In this document: piece by piece, positions 255-9,322 of the stretch
How positions within the stretch are numbered: the first letter of the stretch is position 1
Layout: every line of letters starts with the position of its first letter
Source: Acidobacteriota bacterium
GTDB taxonomy: Bacteria; Acidobacteriota; UBA6911
NCBI GenBank assembly: GCA_031271905.1
Contig: JAISUT010000006.1
Coordinates: 1 to 44,620 of the forward strand
Length of the DNA stretch: 44,620 nt
Direction of reading: 5' to 3'
Notes under the pieces: generated by a model
Databases searched by the model: none
What the model was told of the DNA's origin: nothing
The model's input: only the letters and a program-made list of their open reading frames with translations
Position numbers and translations under genes: made by a program

Positions 255-518
255 TCAGCCGACGGGGGCGACGCGGACGAAATCGTTCTCCAGGCGCAAC
301 TGGGACGGGTCGATGGTCATCGCCGCGCCCCCCTTGCCGTCCTTGTCGAACCACATGGCGGGTGCCATGCAGTCGCAGTGCGCCACGACCTGCCGGGCCT
401 GCTCCGGCGTCAGGGTGATTTGCAGGAGCTGGCACTGGATGTAGTGGATGTCCTTCTCGGCGACTTCCAGCTTCAGTTCGGCGGGCTTGTGCCCGCAGCG
501 GACGGTCACGATGTTCAT
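255..518 (-). CDS. small Cys-rich protein of unknown function, sulfur operon
   Basis: The product is 87 aa with no family I recognise. It has cysteines at 8, 29, 48 and 50 (the last two as a C-D-C pair) and histidines at 10, 25 and 47, so metal or persulfide binding is possible. It has no signal peptide or membrane segment. The ATG at 518 overlaps the TGA of the IscU-like gene as ATGA, which fixes the start and implies translational coupling. As the third gene of a desulfurase/scaffold operon it may accept or deliver sulfur; this is inference from context and cysteine content only. Confidence 0.7.
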   Translation of the reverse strand: MNIVTVRCGHKPAELKLEVAEKDIHYIQCQLLQITLTPEQARQVVAHCDCMAPAMWFDKDGKGGAAMTIDPSQLRLENDFVRVAPVG

Positions 519-1018
519 TTCATTTTCCCTGTCACGGTGAGCGGAGAGCCGAGCAGGTCCCATTGCAGCTTCTCCGCGGCGTTATGGCCGGCCGGCGACT
601 GGTTGCGGTGGTTGGCGACCCCTTCCTTCAAAAGCTCCAGCAGACCGCGCGTCTTCAGTTGCAGCTCCTCTTCCTCGCTGCCGATGATCCCGTAGACCGG
701 CCCGTCGTCCAGCGCGGCGGCTTCGTCCAGCGTCTTCCCCTTCGCCAGCGTGCAGATGACCTCGATGGCGACGTTGGCGACCGGCTCGCAGGAGCAGAGG
801 TATTTGATGTCGGCTATCCTCCCGTCCTCGACGTTGAAGAAGATCTGCATGTAGTTGCCCGCGTTGCCGCAATGCACCATCTTCTCGCCGACGGCCTCCA
901 CGAAGACCGTGGCGTCCTCGATCTGCCCGGAATGCGGAAAATCCTCTTTCAGCAACTGGCGGTAGTATTTGATGACGGCCTGGTCCACGTGTTCCCCGCA
1001 ACTTCCGAATTTCGTCAA
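515..1018 (-). CDS. IscU/NifU-N-like iron-sulfur scaffold homologue, variant ligands
   Basis: The 167-aa product matches the IscU/NifU N-terminal fold in pattern: a first cysteine in H-C-G-N, then QIFFNVEDGRIADIKYLC, a second site C-S-C-E-P, and the helix ending KGKTLDEA typical of this family. Known IscU uses a CGD cysteine, a central cysteine and a C-terminal H-C pair as ligands. Here the aspartate is asparagine, and the C-terminal position reads LKTRGLLELLKEGV with neither histidine nor cysteine. The protein may therefore hold a cluster differently or act as a sulfur carrier. The preferred start is TTG at 1018, overlapping the stop of the desulfurase gene as TTGA; a GTG at 988 would shorten it by 10 codons. 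It lies between the desulfurase and the 87-aa protein gene in one operon. Confidence 0.75.
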   Translation of the reverse strand: MTKFGSCGEHVDQAVIKYYRQLLKEDFPHSGQIEDATVFVEAVGEKMVHCGNAGNYMQIFFNVEDGRIADIKYLCSCEPVANVAIEVICTLAKGKTLDEAAALDDGPVYGIIGSEEEELQLKTRGLLELLKEGVANHRNQSPAGHNAAEKLQWDLLGSPLTVTGKMK

Positions 1019-2328
1019 ATGTAGCAACGCTCGGCGAAGATCGCGTCGAGCGTCTCCACGAACGTCCGGCACTCCTCGAGCGTGTTGTAGAAATAGAGCG
1101 ACACGCGGTAGACCATGCGATGGTCCCTGTGCGACTTGGGCCGCTGCCACCCCGCGCCGAACTGCCCGTTGAAATACGAATGCACGCAGAACACGCCGTC
1201 GCGGACCATGATGTTCGCCTTTTTGTCCAGCTCCGTGGCGATGCCGGTGGAGTTGGGACGCCGCACCTCGAACGTCAGGACGCCCCCGCGCTTCGATGCG
1301 TCCTGCGGGCCGAAGACGCGGAACCAGCCCGCGTCGCCGTAGCGCTTCAGCAGCTCCGCCGTCAGGTAGCCGTTCAACTCGCGCTCTCTGGCGGCGATGC
1401 GCTCCATGCCGACGCCGCCGAGGTACCGCACCGCCGCCCCGGCGGCGATCTGCGCCGGATAGTTAGGGATGCCCGCCTCGAACCCCTCGGGCGCGGCCAG
1501 CAGGCTGTACCCCCCGCAGGTCGCGTCGGCGACCGTCCCGCCCCCCAAGACGGCGGGGTCGAGCCGGTCCGCGCCTTCGTCCGGAGGCTTCGCGCCCGCG
1601 CCCGTCAGCTCGCTTTTGGCGTAAAGCACGCCCAGGCCCCTCGGCCCGCACATCTTGTGGAGCGAGAAGGCGAGCATGTCCACGCCGAGCGCCCCGACGT
1701 CGATCCCCCGGTGCGGCGCGGTCTGCGCCGCGTCCAGCAGCACCCGCGCCCCGTACCGGTGCGCGAGCCGCACGACCTCGGCGGCGGGGATGGTGTAGCC
1801 GGTGAAGTTCGAGGTGAAGCCCATGCTCACCAGGCGCACCCCACCGGCCTTCAGCCGCGATTCCAAGGCGTCGAGGTCGAACTCCTCGTCCGCCCCCATA
1901 GGGAGGCACTGCACGTTGACGCCCCCGCGCGCCTGCAAGCGCAGCCAGGGGATCAGGTTGGAGTTGTGCTCCCGGTCGGTCAGGAGCACCGTGTCCCCCT
2001 CGCGGAAGTTGAACCCCAGCGCCACGGCGTTCAGGGCGTGCGTGGTGTTGAGGGCGAACAGGATCTCCTTCTCCGACGGCGCGTGGATGAAATCGGCGAT
2101 TTGCCGCCGCGAGCCGGCGGTCTCGTCCTCGACGCGCGAGGTGACCTCCTCGGCGAACCAATGGTGGCTGCGGCGACCGCCGCACCCCGGATATTTCGCG
2201 TAATACTCGCCGATGGCGTCGATGACAGGCTGCGGGACGAGCGTCGTGCAGGCGTTGTCGAAATAGATGGGGGGCTTGCCGTCGCGCCGCTGGCCGAGGG
2301 ATGGGAAGTCGTTGCGGTATCGTTCCAT
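1015..2328 (-). CDS. class V aminotransferase, SufS-like cysteine desulfurase
   Basis: The 437-aa PLP enzyme is of the SufS/CsdA group and is predicted to take sulfur from cysteine as a protein persulfide. Visible marks are the N-terminal YFDNACTTLVPQPVIDA, the THALNAVALG cofactor region, LLDAAQTAPH, the PLP lysine in FSLHKMCGPRG (about residue 225) and a persulfide-site cysteine in VRDGVFCVHSYF (about residue 379). ATG 2328 is chosen because the homologous part begins at once; a TTG at 2364 would add 12 unlikely residues. It heads an operon with the IscU-like and 87-aa genes, with overlapping stop/start codons. The mop gene nearby encodes a xanthine-oxidase-family enzyme, a family that often needs Mo-cofactor sulfuration, so a role there is possible. 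General Fe-S assembly is the alternative. Confidence 0.87.
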   Translation of the reverse strand: MERYRNDFPSLGQRRDGKPPIYFDNACTTLVPQPVIDAIGEYYAKYPGCGGRRSHHWFAEEVTSRVEDETAGSRRQIADFIHAPSEKEILFALNTTHALNAVALGFNFREGDTVLLTDREHNSNLIPWLRLQARGGVNVQCLPMGADEEFDLDALESRLKAGGVRLVSMGFTSNFTGYTIPAAEVVRLAHRYGARVLLDAAQTAPHRGIDVGALGVDMLAFSLHKMCGPRGLGVLYAKSELTGAGAKPPDEGADRLDPAVLGGGTVADATCGGYSLLAAPEGFEAGIPNYPAQIAAGAAVRYLGGVGMERIAARERELNGYLTAELLKRYGDAGWFRVFGPQDASKRGGVLTFEVRRPNSTGIATELDKKANIMVRDGVFCVHSYFNGQFGAGWQRPKSHRDHRMVYRVSLYFYNTLEECRTFVETLDAIFAERCYI

Positions 2329-2368: not shown

Positions 2369-2779
2369 CTACCGTATGATTTTTCGATCTTTTTCGCCGG
2401 GCTTTTTCACGACCGACAGCCTCGGCTTCAAATCTTCGATTTTCGACATGTGCTTGTCGAACGTGGACAACCGTTCTCCCGTCAAAATCGCGGTCGCCGC
2501 AACAATCGCGTCCCCGCTCCGTATCCCGTCCGCAAGGGCATGTTTTTCAACTATTTCGGCGGCTTTTATCCCGATTTCTTTTTTCAGGTGAATTATTTTG
2601 AATCCTGCTATGGACAGCAATGTCTTGATGGCGGCCTGTTCGCGCTTGTTTTCGGCCCCTTGCATCAGCTCCAGATAGGTCTGCATCGAAATCGACCTTT
2701 CCGCAAACCTGTCTATGTGGCTGATGGCATGTTCATACCCCTTCATGCCGTCAATCAAAACGTCGGTGTCGAAAATCAA
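2369..2779 (-). CDS. vapC: PIN-domain toxin, VapC family
   Basis: The 136-aa PIN domain is predicted to be an RNA-cleaving toxin. The acidic metal-binding set is visible: D4 and D6 in IFDTDVLIDG, the glutamate of YLELMQG, the aspartate of IRSGDAIVAATA, and a C-terminal LSTFDKHMSKIEDL in the place of the usual NxxHF segment. The start is taken as TTG at 2779, overlapping the antitoxin stop (TTGA); this puts the first catalytic strand right at the N-terminus as in other VapC proteins. An upstream ATG at 2839 would run through the antitoxin gene in another frame. Base composition is visibly more AT-rich than the neighbours, which suggests horizontal acquisition. Confidence 0.85.
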   Translation of the reverse strand: MIFDTDVLIDGMKGYEHAISHIDRFAERSISMQTYLELMQGAENKREQAAIKTLLSIAGFKIIHLKKEIGIKAAEIVEKHALADGIRSGDAIVAATAILTGERLSTFDKHMSKIEDLKPRLSVVKKPGEKDRKIIR

Positions 2780-2934
2780 TCGCGTTTGCCCCTCAGCCTC
2801 GCCATCATTTCCTCTGTGGGCTCGTTCCTGTTTTTCCACATTCCTATCGCGGGATGTTTTTTCCAGTCGGCGGTTTTGCCACCAACTGGCTTGCTTTCCC
2901 TGATCTTGCCTTCCGGCGCTGTTTTTTTTGTCAT
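2776..2934 (-). CDS. vapB: antitoxin of the VapB type
   Basis: The 52-aa protein ends in a motif common to small VapC-partner antitoxins, HPAIGMWKNRNEPTEEMMARLRG, a toxin-wrapping C-terminal segment (quoted in part as HPAIGMWKNR and EEMMARLRG). The lysine-rich N-terminus is too short for me to assign a DNA-binding fold. ATG 2934 lies only 6 nt downstream of a strong -10 box and no Shine-Dalgarno is visible, so the mRNA may be leaderless. It precedes and overlaps vapC by 4 bp. Confidence 0.75.
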   Translation of the reverse strand: MTKKTAPEGKIRESKPVGGKTADWKKHPAIGMWKNRNEPTEEMMARLRGKRD

Positions 2935-2940
2935 GGATGT

Positions 2941-2969
2941 ATCATATATCGCTTTCCCCGGTTTGGCAA
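2941..2969 (-). promoter_or_regulatory. sigma-70 type promoter of vapBC
   Basis: On the minus strand TTGCCA (2969-2964) and TATGAT (2946-2941) are separated by exactly 17 nt. The expected transcription start falls on or next to the A of the vapB ATG at 2934. The -10 region sits in a near-palindromic ATATATGATACAT stretch that could be the VapBC autoregulatory site. Confidence 0.65.
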
Positions 2970-3075: not shown

Positions 3076-5775
<2,700 letters not shown>

Positions 5776-6240: not shown

Positions 6241-7956
6241 ATGTCAACGATTGTCAGGGTGAACATGGAGACCAAGGAGGTGTCCACGGAAGACGCCGGG
6301 GTTTACAACGGTTACGGCTCGCGGGGCTTCATCGCCCGCTTCATGACAAGCGAGGTCTCGCCGACCTGCGAGCCGCTCGGCATCCACAACAAATTCATCA
6401 TCTGCACCGGCCTTCTGGGCGGCACGGCCGTGTCGAGCTCGGGCAGGCTCTCCATCGGCGGCAAGAGCCCGCTCACCAACGGCATCAAAGAGGCCAGCTC
6501 CGGCGGCACGGCCGCCAACGACTTGGCGCGCCACGGCATCCGCGCCATCATCATCGAGCGGCTGCCCGCCTCCGACGACCGGGGCACCTACGTCGTCGTG
6601 GTCTCCGACGAAGGCGTCCGGCTGGAAACCATGAACGAATTGCAGTACATGGGGGCGCGCAACACCATCAAGGCGCTGCGGCAGAGGTTCGGCGAGAAGG
6701 CGGGGGTCATCTGCAACGGCCCCACGGGCGAGCGCCTGATGCGCGGCGCGGGGGTCGTCTGCGCCTCGCCGCACGGGGAGATGCGCTTCGCCGCCCGAGG
6801 CGGCATGGGCGCGGTCATGGGCAGCAAGCAGGTCAAGGCTGTGGTCATCATCCCCGCCGCCTCGTCGAAGGTGGAGTATTTCGACAAGGCGGTTTTCACC
6901 GAGGCGGCCAAGGAATACCACCAGATGCTGGTGGACGCCATGCCCACGATCAAGAAGAGCAACCAGCTCTACGGCACGACCGGCATGTTCAAGATCGTCA
7001 ACGAGCTGGGCCTGTGCCCGACGCGCAACTTCACGCTCGGCGCCTTCGACCAGCACAAGGAGATCGGCGGCGAGAAGCTGGTCGAGCTCATCCAGGCGCG
7101 CGGCGGCGACGGCAAGACCGGCCAGGCGTGCATGAACGGCTGCATGATCAAGTGCATGTCGATCTTCCCCGACAAGGACGGGAAGGCGGTCTGCTCGACC
7201 GTGCAGTACGAGAACCTGTCGCTCATCGGCTCGAACCTCTGCCTGGGCAGCCTGGACGAGATCGCCCGCCTGAACGACAAGGTGAACGACCTGGGCCTGG
7301 ACACCATCGAGACCGGCGCGGCGCTGGGGGTGGCGGCCGAGGCGGGGGCGGCCGAGTTCGGCGACATCGACAGCTTCATGAAGCTGATGGACGAGATAGA
7401 GGCCGCGACGCCGCTGGGGCGCGTCATCGGCAACGGCGTCAAGACCACAGGCGAGGTGTTCGGCATCAAGGACCTGCCCATGTCCAAGGGGCAGGCGTTC
7501 CCCGGCTACGACCCGCGCGCCCTGAAGGGGAACGGCGTCACCTTCGCCATGACCCCGATGGGGGGCGACCATACGCTGGGCAACTGCTACGGCGCGCGCG
7601 CCACGGTGCCGCCCCTGTCCTGCGAGGGGCAGGGCGACCTTTCACGCAAGACCCAGTTGCAGATGGCGGGCTTGGAGAACATGGGATTCTGCATCTTCGC
7701 CCGCTCCTACCTGTTCAAGAAGCCGGAGCTGTTCACCAAGTTCACCTACGGGATGTGCGGGACGCAGATGACGGTGGACGAGTTCTGGGAGCAGGGGCAC
7801 GAGACCGCGCGCCTGGAGTACGAGTACAACGTCAAGGCGGGCATCGCCCCGGCGCAGGACAAGCTGCCGGAGTACATGTACCGGGTGCCGCTCCCCCCCA
7901 CCAACCACGTCTTCGACCTGACGGACGAGGAGTTGCAGAAAGGCCGCCTCTGCTGA
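6241..7956 (+). CDS. aor: tungsten-type aldehyde:ferredoxin oxidoreductase
   Basis: The 571-aa enzyme is of the AOR family, which oxidises aldehydes with ferredoxin using a bis-pyranopterin metal site, usually tungsten. Pterin-binding signatures are ARGGMGAVMGSK (about residue 190) and NDLGLDTIETGAALG, with YDPRALKGNGVTFAMTPMGG towards the C-terminus. The 4Fe-4S ligands are CMNGCMIKC (C-x3-C-x3-C) plus a fourth cysteine in MGFCIFARSY. The C-x3-C spacing differs from the C-x2-C of Pyrococcus AOR but is known in a bacterial subclade. ATG 6241 has GGGGGA at 6225-6230; ATG 6265 is possible but would cut the conserved start. It leads the MoaD-like and regulator genes. No signal peptide is seen. 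Confidence 0.93.
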   Translation: MSTIVRVNMETKEVSTEDAGVYNGYGSRGFIARFMTSEVSPTCEPLGIHNKFIICTGLLGGTAVSSSGRLSIGGKSPLTNGIKEASSGGTAANDLARHGIRAIIIERLPASDDRGTYVVVVSDEGVRLETMNELQYMGARNTIKALRQRFGEKAGVICNGPTGERLMRGAGVVCASPHGEMRFAARGGMGAVMGSKQVKAVVIIPAASSKVEYFDKAVFTEAAKEYHQMLVDAMPTIKKSNQLYGTTGMFKIVNELGLCPTRNFTLGAFDQHKEIGGEKLVELIQARGGDGKTGQACMNGCMIKCMSIFPDKDGKAVCSTVQYENLSLIGSNLCLGSLDEIARLNDKVNDLGLDTIETGAALGVAAEAGAAEFGDIDSFMKLMDEIEAATPLGRVIGNGVKTTGEVFGIKDLPMSKGQAFPGYDPRALKGNGVTFAMTPMGGDHTLGNCYGARATVPPLSCEGQGDLSRKTQLQMAGLENMGFCIFARSYLFKKPELFTKFTYGMCGTQMTVDEFWEQGHETARLEYEYNVKAGIAPAQDKLPEYMYRVPLPPTNHVFDLTDEELQKGRLC

Positions 7957-8407: not shown

Positions 8408-9322
8408 ATGACCAGGGAAATGTTCACCACCAAGGAAGTCGCGGAATACCTCAGCATCAACGAGAAGCAGGTCTACCGCCTGATCAAGGAAAAGAAGATA
8501 CCCGCCACCCGCATCACCGGCAAATGGCTGTTCCCGAAAAACCTGGTCGAAGAATGGATCATGTCCAGCGCCCGCGAGAGCGTCGGGGCGGGCGTCCCGC
8601 GCGGCATCCCGGAAAACCAACTGGTCATCGCCGGCAGCAACGACATCGCGCTGGAGCTGCTGGTGAAAAACGCCGCGTCCGCCTATCCCCAGTACACGAT
8701 CTCCATCTCCAACGTCGGCTCCCTGGCGGGGCTCATCGCCCTGCACAACGGCAGTTGCCACGTCGCGGCGACGCACCTCCTGGACGTGGAGACGGGCGAG
8801 TACAACAGCAGCTTCATCAAAAAGCACTTCCCCGACATGAAGGTCGTGCTGGTGAACGTCGCGCACCGCGAGCAGGGGCTCATCGTCAAGAAGGGGAACC
8901 CCCTCGGCATCAAGAACGTCAAGTCGCTGGTGACGAAGAAGGCGACGCTCATCAACCGGCAGGAGGGCTCCGGCACCCGCGTGCTGCTCGACTACCGCCT
9001 GAAGGAGAACGGCATCGACCCGGAGTCGGTCCGGGGGTACGACCGCATCGCCTACACCCACATGGAGGTCGCGCTGGACGTTTTCAGCGGCGCGGCCGAC
9101 GCGGGAGTGGGCATCATGGCGGCGGCGCGGATGCTGGGGCTGGATTTCGTCCCGCTGGCGAAGGAGCGGTTCGACCTGGCCGTCCTGACGGAGCAATGCG
9201 GCGCCGAGCCGGTCGCGGCGTTGCGCAAGACGCTCGGCGCGGCCGAGTTCAAGGCCAGCGTCGCCGCGATGGGCGGCTACGACGTCCACGACACCGGCAA
9301 GGTGGTCTACGAGCGCGACTGA
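8408..9322 (+). CDS. HTH (excisionase/MerR-like) plus periplasmic-binding-like domain regulator
   Basis: Residues 6-55 form an HTH_17-type domain (TTKEVAEYLSINEKQVYRLI, then a K-W-L-F-P wing). Residues 70-300 form a PBP-like domain without a signal peptide (LVIAGSNDIALELL, GSLAGLIALHNGSCHVAATHL, NRQEGSGTRVLLD), the fold also seen fused to MoeA-like proteins and related to molybdate/tungstate binding. A metal-oxyanion-sensing regulator of the neighbouring aldehyde oxidoreductase genes is the natural reading; ligand and targets are inferred. ATG 8408 (304 aa) is preferred over 8396 and 8423; none has a strong Shine-Dalgarno. It is the last gene of the aor cassette, 51 nt after the MoaD-like gene. 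Confidence 0.85.
   Translation: MTREMFTTKEVAEYLSINEKQVYRLIKEKKIPATRITGKWLFPKNLVEEWIMSSARESVGAGVPRGIPENQLVIAGSNDIALELLVKNAASAYPQYTISISNVGSLAGLIALHNGSCHVAATHLLDVETGEYNSSFIKKHFPDMKVVLVNVAHREQGLIVKKGNPLGIKNVKSLVTKKATLINRQEGSGTRVLLDYRLKENGIDPESVRGYDRIAYTHMEVALDVFSGAADAGVGIMAAARMLGLDFVPLAKERFDLAVLTEQCGAEPVAALRKTLGAAEFKASVAAMGGYDVHDTGKVVYERD

Follow-up and report, generated by a model that had tools for sequence, protein, structure and literature searches.

In a member of the Acidobacteriota, three clustered genes encode a SufS-like cysteine desulfurase, an IscU-fold protein that has lost every IscU ligand and a small protein of no known family with a CxC motif. Within the sampled genomes of the phylum this trio was found only together with mop2, the gene of a divergent molybdenum enzyme. 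By analogy with the XdhC-NifS4 system, we give about even weight to the idea that the trio is a dedicated persulfide relay sulfurating (or selenating) the molybdenum cofactor of Mop2, rather than an Fe-S scaffold. We infer all of the catalytic and transfer steps of such a relay, the order of its carriers and the target atom.

The window, that is the whole stretch of 44,620 nucleotides that was analysed, comes from a genome of 3.4 Mb in 67 contigs (G000). Its genes discussed here are the following.

255..518, minus strand: 87-aa CxC protein, no known family, present in three genomes of the phylum sample of 396
515..988, minus strand: IscU-fold protein, 157 aa with its start at GTG 988, devoid of IscU ligands (PDB profile, AF2 model, ligand columns)
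1015..2328, minus strand: SufS-like (type II) cysteine desulfurase, 437 aa (Aminotran_5, NCBIfam SufS, 1t3i alignment, orthologues)
2369-2779, minus strand: PIN-domain (VapC-like) gene (PF01850, E 2.9e-12)
2776-2955, minus strand: small ORF of no family just before the PIN-domain gene, between mop2 and sufS
3076..5775, minus strand: Mop2, 899-aa molybdopterin aldehyde oxidoreductase of the Mop type, divergent, with Mo-binding domains and two [2Fe-2S] domains
6241-7956, plus strand: aldehyde:ferredoxin oxidoreductase-family protein (W-type AOR), divergent from mop2
8408-9322, plus strand: HTH_17 + PBP_like protein, C-terminal part resembling the final portion of NF011068, a fused molybdopterin biosynthesis protein (252 bits)

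The minus-strand placement of the three genes given in the initial annotation holds (2328-1015, 518-255 and, for the iscU-like gene, 1018 or 988 to 515), and mop2 lies upstream of them on the same strand. In the window genome the PIN-domain gene and the small ORF intervene before sufS. Neither of the two other genomes with the module has this pair inside its mop2-sufS operon; the pair resembles a recent insertion and is outside the conserved module. The protein at 8408-9322 is possibly a Mo/W- or cofactor-sensing regulator; a similar HTH protein adjoins the canonical mop gene of G188, another genome with the module.

Sequence and fold of the three proteins

The SufS-like protein belongs to Aminotran_5 (E 7.9e-89; 298.6 bits against the Pfam cut-off of 21.5), and its best NCBIfam model is SufS TIGR01979, where its 298.2 bits stay under the curated cut-off of 475. 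Alignment to 1t3i located the PLP lysine, K225 (codon 1656-1654), and the persulfide cysteine, C381 (codon 1188-1186), both of which are invariant in the orthologues; a conserved insertion of ~12 residues follows the Cys loop. In Mycobacterium tuberculosis SufS, as described in PMC10216065, His354, located 19 residues before the active Cys373, swaps onto the zinc of SufU. The matching position in our protein, again via 1t3i, is T361 (T/T/V in the three orthologues). As far as sequence can tell, the loss of this histidine and the loss of the zinc site in the IscU-like partner would be mutually consistent.

Homology of the second protein to IscU is solid from both sequence and model. Its two orthologues reach 28.7 and 29.6 bits with PF01592 and thus exceed the Pfam cut-off of 22 for NifU_N, the window protein itself falling just below it with 20.4 bits. 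The AF2 model (pLDDT 82.9) matches IscU in Foldseek with E 2.3e-8 and in VIA with Z 16.4 (rmsd 3.2 over 124 residues), while its likeness to the SufE/CsdE sulfur acceptors is weaker (Z 8-9). Since this model was built on an alignment that included 15 ordinary IscU proteins, it may be biased toward the IscU fold; the search of the PDB with the family profile, which retrieved IscU at E 4.6e-8, is independent of that alignment. Membership in SufU is contradicted by a score of 16.8 bits against the TIGR01994 cut-off of 92.5 and by the absence of the Zn ligands. No SufE family appeared among Pfam and NCBIfam matches up to E 10, so that the resemblance to SufE is one of fold alone.

The ligand site was read in an alignment of the three orthologues with 15 ordinary IscU/NifU proteins, which keep all or most of the ligands. 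In all three orthologues C37 is replaced by A/S/T, D39 by N, C63 by E, H105 by K and C106 by T/V, the numbers being those of E. coli IscU. The missing C-terminal His-Cys pair had been recognized earlier and is confirmed in each orthologue, but the accompanying view that only this third site was lost, with CGD turned into CGN and CSCEP retained as a cysteine site, has to be abandoned. The CGN reading was misaligned by three residues: the C-G-D columns hold A/S/T-G-N, and the cysteine of HCGN stands three columns earlier. Likewise, the C63 column is occupied by the glutamate of CSCEP, with new cysteines at -1 and -3. As every ligand column is changed in 3/3 orthologues, we are not dealing with a scaffold minus one ligand but with a site rebuilt as a whole. 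Invariant instead are C40, C65, C67 and C79, which are new relative to IscU (codons 871-869 for C40, 796-794 for C65 and 790-788 for C67). H39-C40 is conserved, and the new cysteines (HC40 and C65xC67) lie at most three residues from the old ligand positions. Residues 39-41 have pLDDT below 50 in the AF2 model and, as expected, such low confidence around C40 would fit a mobile hairpin. With none of the IscU ligands left, this protein is more plausibly part of a sulfur relay than a site of Fe-S assembly.

The 87-aa protein does have the four cysteines and three histidines originally counted in its translation. Across the three orthologues C8-x-H10, C29, C48-x-C50 and the stretch MTIDPSQ are invariant, H25 and H47 are not. 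The earlier failure to name a family also stands, as HMM searches of Pfam and NCBIfam gave no meaningful match. Comparison with PDB sequences yielded chance-level matches alone (best E 0.62 and 0.19). The AF2 model, built from 3 sequences (pLDDT 77.6), found no Foldseek match under E 0.2, and VIA-align gave at most Z 3.8, to flavin-reductase-like barrels, which we treated as no result. That we are looking at a real gene follows from orthologues at 70% and 41% identity and from differences concentrated at third codon positions. Moreover, a profile made from the G000 and G074 copies alone finds that of G188 with E 4.3e-15, calculated for a database size of one million. Judged by residue content, the four cysteines and one histidine might suit a metal site or a thiol carrier. 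Identity with DVU_1557 was considered and rejected: there was no NF045645 match at E 10 for the window protein, nor at 1e-4 for the G188 orthologue.

Distribution and neighbourhood of the trio

In G074, a genome of the same genus, mop2, sufS, the iscU-like gene and the CxC gene form a single row. In G188 the first three are in a row and the CxC gene is divergent, just upstream of mop2. Both loci are free of the PIN-domain pair, and mop2 and sufS are ~60 and ~125 bases apart. In other words, the module stays together despite the relocation of the CxC gene in one genome and a toxin-antitoxin-like pair inside it in another. Identities to the window proteins are 73 and 66% for the SufS-like, 61 and 54% for the IscU-like and 70 and 41% for the CxC protein, and 81 and 77% for Mop2; in all twelve pairwise comparisons of the four genes, third codon positions differ most.

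The same loci bear on the gene overlaps, from which a fixed-ratio complex had been deduced. An alternative iscU-like start in the window is TTG at 1018 (167 aa). Both orthologous genes begin at a GTG equivalent to window 988, leaving a gap of 13 or 21 bases, and TTG 1018 is therefore probably not the start, which leaves the proposed TTGA overlap with sufS unsupported. The ATGA overlap of the iscU-like and CxC genes is present in the window. With one overlap gone and the CxC gene outside the chain in G188, the argument for a fixed-ratio complex fails.

We examined the family (15 genomes, 10 of them in the genus) and a sample of 396 genomes of the phylum, reduced to 199 for the IscU-like protein. 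Within the family, SufS-like orthologues (at least 658 bits) and mop2 are present in the identical three genomes and the other 12 have neither; proteins of G196 and G201, with 209-213 bits and 40% identity to the SufS-like enzyme, were counted as other desulfurases. Throughout the phylum sample, the CxC protein has matches in 3/396 genomes (E <1e-44) and no further one. Mop2 is found in three at 1953 bits or more, followed by canonical Mops of four genomes (577-591 bits), and the SufS-like protein in three at no less than 908 bits, followed by three genomes of other families (337-344 bits). Because these scans at first look scored only two (Mop2) and four (SufS-like) candidates per genome, distant copies of both may be missed. 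IscU-like matches came from 31/199 genomes, three of them close (at least 177 bits); among the other 28, the 27 that were examined are IscU/NifU proteins with all or most of the ligands in place. A contig scan with a single IscU-like sequence returned one locus, that of G074; it used exact peptide patterns and would miss distant relatives. Viral contigs scanned with all four families contained no relative. Of three plasmid tblastn searches, one was empty and two gave only matches below 60% identity, of which the listed ones were for the most part family 2A encapsulin cargo desulfurases and proteins resembling XDH. The literature searched contained no paper on such a three-protein module.

The trio and Mop2 thus share the identical three genomes, always at a single locus, and genus members without Mop2 are also without the trio. 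Placement relative to molybdenum enzymes had been set beforehand as a test, and within the phylum it is not random, the trio always accompanying Mop2. With only three genomes, all of one genus, this co-occurrence represents few independent events. It nevertheless gives strong contextual support to the molybdenum half of the earlier suggestion of a dedicated sulfuration or Fe-S delivery route for the nearby Mo/W enzymes. The tungsten half is rejected, since the W-type AOR is not near mop2 in either G074 or G188, and the Fe-S assembly option is disfavoured by the ligand losses.

Could the trio donate sulfur elsewhere, for instance to tRNA thiolation, a thio-metabolite or sulfide supply and detoxification, and share a regulon with Mop2 through one substrate pathway? 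Cysteine desulfurases feed many acceptors, contact with Mop2 is a prediction, and the modelled CxC protein has no recognised fold match. However, no biosynthetic or tRNA gene is common to the three loci and mop2 alone is, and we hold this explanation to be fairly improbable.

In G188 a canonical mop gene and a DVU_1553/DVU_1555/TrsS set are the tail-to-tail neighbours of the mop2 module. The region (L033:5065-18517, ~13.5 kb) comprises the module, this set, a further large Cys-rich protein and the canonical mop. TrsS as a specific partner of the trio was rejected, as it is present in 10/10 genus members, with or without the trio.

Mop2 as the candidate target

Mop2 has the domains of a Mop-type enzyme (Fer2, Fer2_2, Ald_Xan_dh_C, MoCoBD_1 and MoCoBD_2 in Pfam). 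Its closest PDB entry is 1sij, the Mop of Desulfovibrio gigas (639 bits), with the [2Fe-2S] cluster cysteines kept and the catalytic Glu motif GATGVGE (GxxGVGE) aligned with GASGVGE. With NF045668 the Mop2 proteins of the three genomes score 750, 769 and 794 bits, below the cut-off of 1100. Mop2 shares 35-39% identity with the canonical Mops of the genus, eight in number (L044:7622-10486, L045:8091-10934, L046:7910-10741, L033:15662-18517, L050:7402-10233, L051:8222-11038, L052:130-2979 and L053:2347-5187). The Gln of the GG..QG.G stretch, shared by D. gigas Mop and Mop2, is His in all eight, in which GS.G.SE also stands in place of GA.GVGE. Judged by these residues, the active site of the eight proteins may be a different one.

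In the family of Mop2, the molybdenum usually bears a terminal sulfur; for D. gigas Mop, this sulfido ligand has been a matter of debate. XdhC_C is encoded in 15/15 family genomes, with two copies in G000; XdhC is not adjacent to the module in any of the three genomes, and G074 and G188 each have one copy far away on the module's contig. According to PMC2997495, NifS4 of Rhodobacter capsulatus sulfurates Moco bound to XdhC. The usual terminal sulfur, the NifS4 precedent and the ubiquity of XdhC in the family are why we read the trio as a persulfide relay for Mop2. Supporting this reading is the observation that the canonical mop clusters of G074 and G113 also encode a desulfurase, albeit of another family: the G074 locus includes a dicluster oxidoreductase, DVU_1557, DVU_1555, DVU_1553 and a TIGR01977 desulfurase, in an order identical to that of G113. 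In such a relay, the SufS-like enzyme would draw on L-cysteine and bind its sulfur as a C381 persulfide. The IscU-fold protein, having given up the role of a cluster scaffold, would dock on this enzyme, accept the persulfide on a cysteine of the mobile hairpin (C40) or on C65/C67 and pass the sulfur onward, with the CxC protein as a putative second carrier binding it through thiols or a metal. Finally, the sulfur would reach the molybdopterin cofactor, held by XdhC or already on Mop2, and form the terminal Mo=S ligand.

Besides the few independent events, the distance of XdhC from the module and the debated ligand of D. gigas Mop, it counts against the relay that SufS/IscU-type pairs usually serve Fe-S assembly. 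The pair might then build or deliver the two [2Fe-2S] clusters of Mop2, the CxC protein being the true cluster or iron carrier. Both homologues are Fe-S assembly proteins by family, Mop2 retains its cluster cysteines, and H39, C40, C65, C67 and C79 of the IscU-like protein could be new ligands, yet all classical ligand columns are changed. This route is further weakened by genus members that have canonical Mops with identical cluster cysteines and no trio, from which it also follows that the trio is not needed for the [2Fe-2S] clusters of canonical Mop. We therefore regard it as unlikely.

A selenium version of the scheme, in which the SufS-like protein would carry selenium or be a selenocysteine lyase and labile Se would be passed by the relay to the molybdenum of Mop2, as in selenium-dependent molybdenum hydroxylases (SDMHs), seems rather unlikely to us. 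SelD is present in 10/10 genus members including G000, most copies having an in-frame TGA, but genus members without Mop2 have it too. TrsS has an in-frame TGA in 6/11 copies. Against TIGR03311, the model of selenium-dependent XDH, Mop2 reaches 482 bits where the cut-off is 830. According to PMC2276186, a selenocysteine-lyase-like gene is carried by SDMH loci, which would favour selenium, whereas the module itself holds no selenium-specific gene. Counted over the family, 15/19 SelD copies contain an in-frame TGA, and in G000 SelD has one (G000:C3:17258-18190) and TrsS does not (G000:C53:36735-38174). The TGA being present in some TrsS copies and absent from others, Sec/Cys exchange in this protein can be studied inside one genus.

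Relation to known systems and implications

The persulfide relay proposed for Mop2 shares features with several known systems. Like SufS-SufU of Bacillus subtilis and M. tuberculosis, it has a type II desulfurase gene beside that of an IscU-fold sulfur acceptor; SufU, according to PMC10216065, needs its Zn site and the SufS histidine swapping onto it, whereas the trio has neither the Zn ligands nor the histidine. With IscS-IscU and NifS-NifU it has the IscU fold and homology in common, and it differs by the absence of C37, D39, C63, H105 and C106 and by a desulfurase that is SufS-like, not IscS-like. In SufS-SufE and CsdA-CsdE, too, a type II desulfurase works with a persulfide acceptor that is free of metal (as predicted here) and related in fold, and the acceptor cysteine lies in a loop, modelled here with low confidence; the acceptor of the trio is by sequence a relative of IscU (PF01592) and not of SufE. 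XdhC-NifS4 offers the parallel of a specific desulfurase for a xanthine-oxidase-family enzyme (again predicted here). There, according to PMC2997495, XdhC-bound Moco takes sulfur directly from NifS4, whereas here two extra small proteins would take part and XdhC is encoded elsewhere in the genome. Mop accessory clusters of the DVU_1551-1559/TrsS type, one of which adjoins the mop2 module in G188, also include a desulfurase and a small Cys protein (DVU_1557), but their desulfurase is of the TIGR01977 family and the model of DVU_1557 does not recognise the CxC protein.

A bolder proposal, which we make tentatively and place clearly below even, is that a metal-free IscU-fold persulfide (or selenide) relay, with its own SufS-like enzyme and a new CxH/CxC carrier, finishes the Mo cofactor of one divergent hydroxylase and constitutes a previously undescribed sulfuration pathway of three proteins. 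None of the enzyme classes is new in itself; what is new, within the libraries and literature searched, is their combination, an IscU devoid of ligands and the family of the CxC protein. The CxC protein thus adds a new family, likely with a metal or thiol site. Few bacterial enzymes of the xanthine-oxidase family have a known route for delivery of the terminal sulfur to molybdenum, and a compact operon in which one such enzyme is coupled to a desulfurase and relay of its own would offer a model that can be tested. The module would also be a natural case of an Fe-S scaffold turned into a sulfur carrier.
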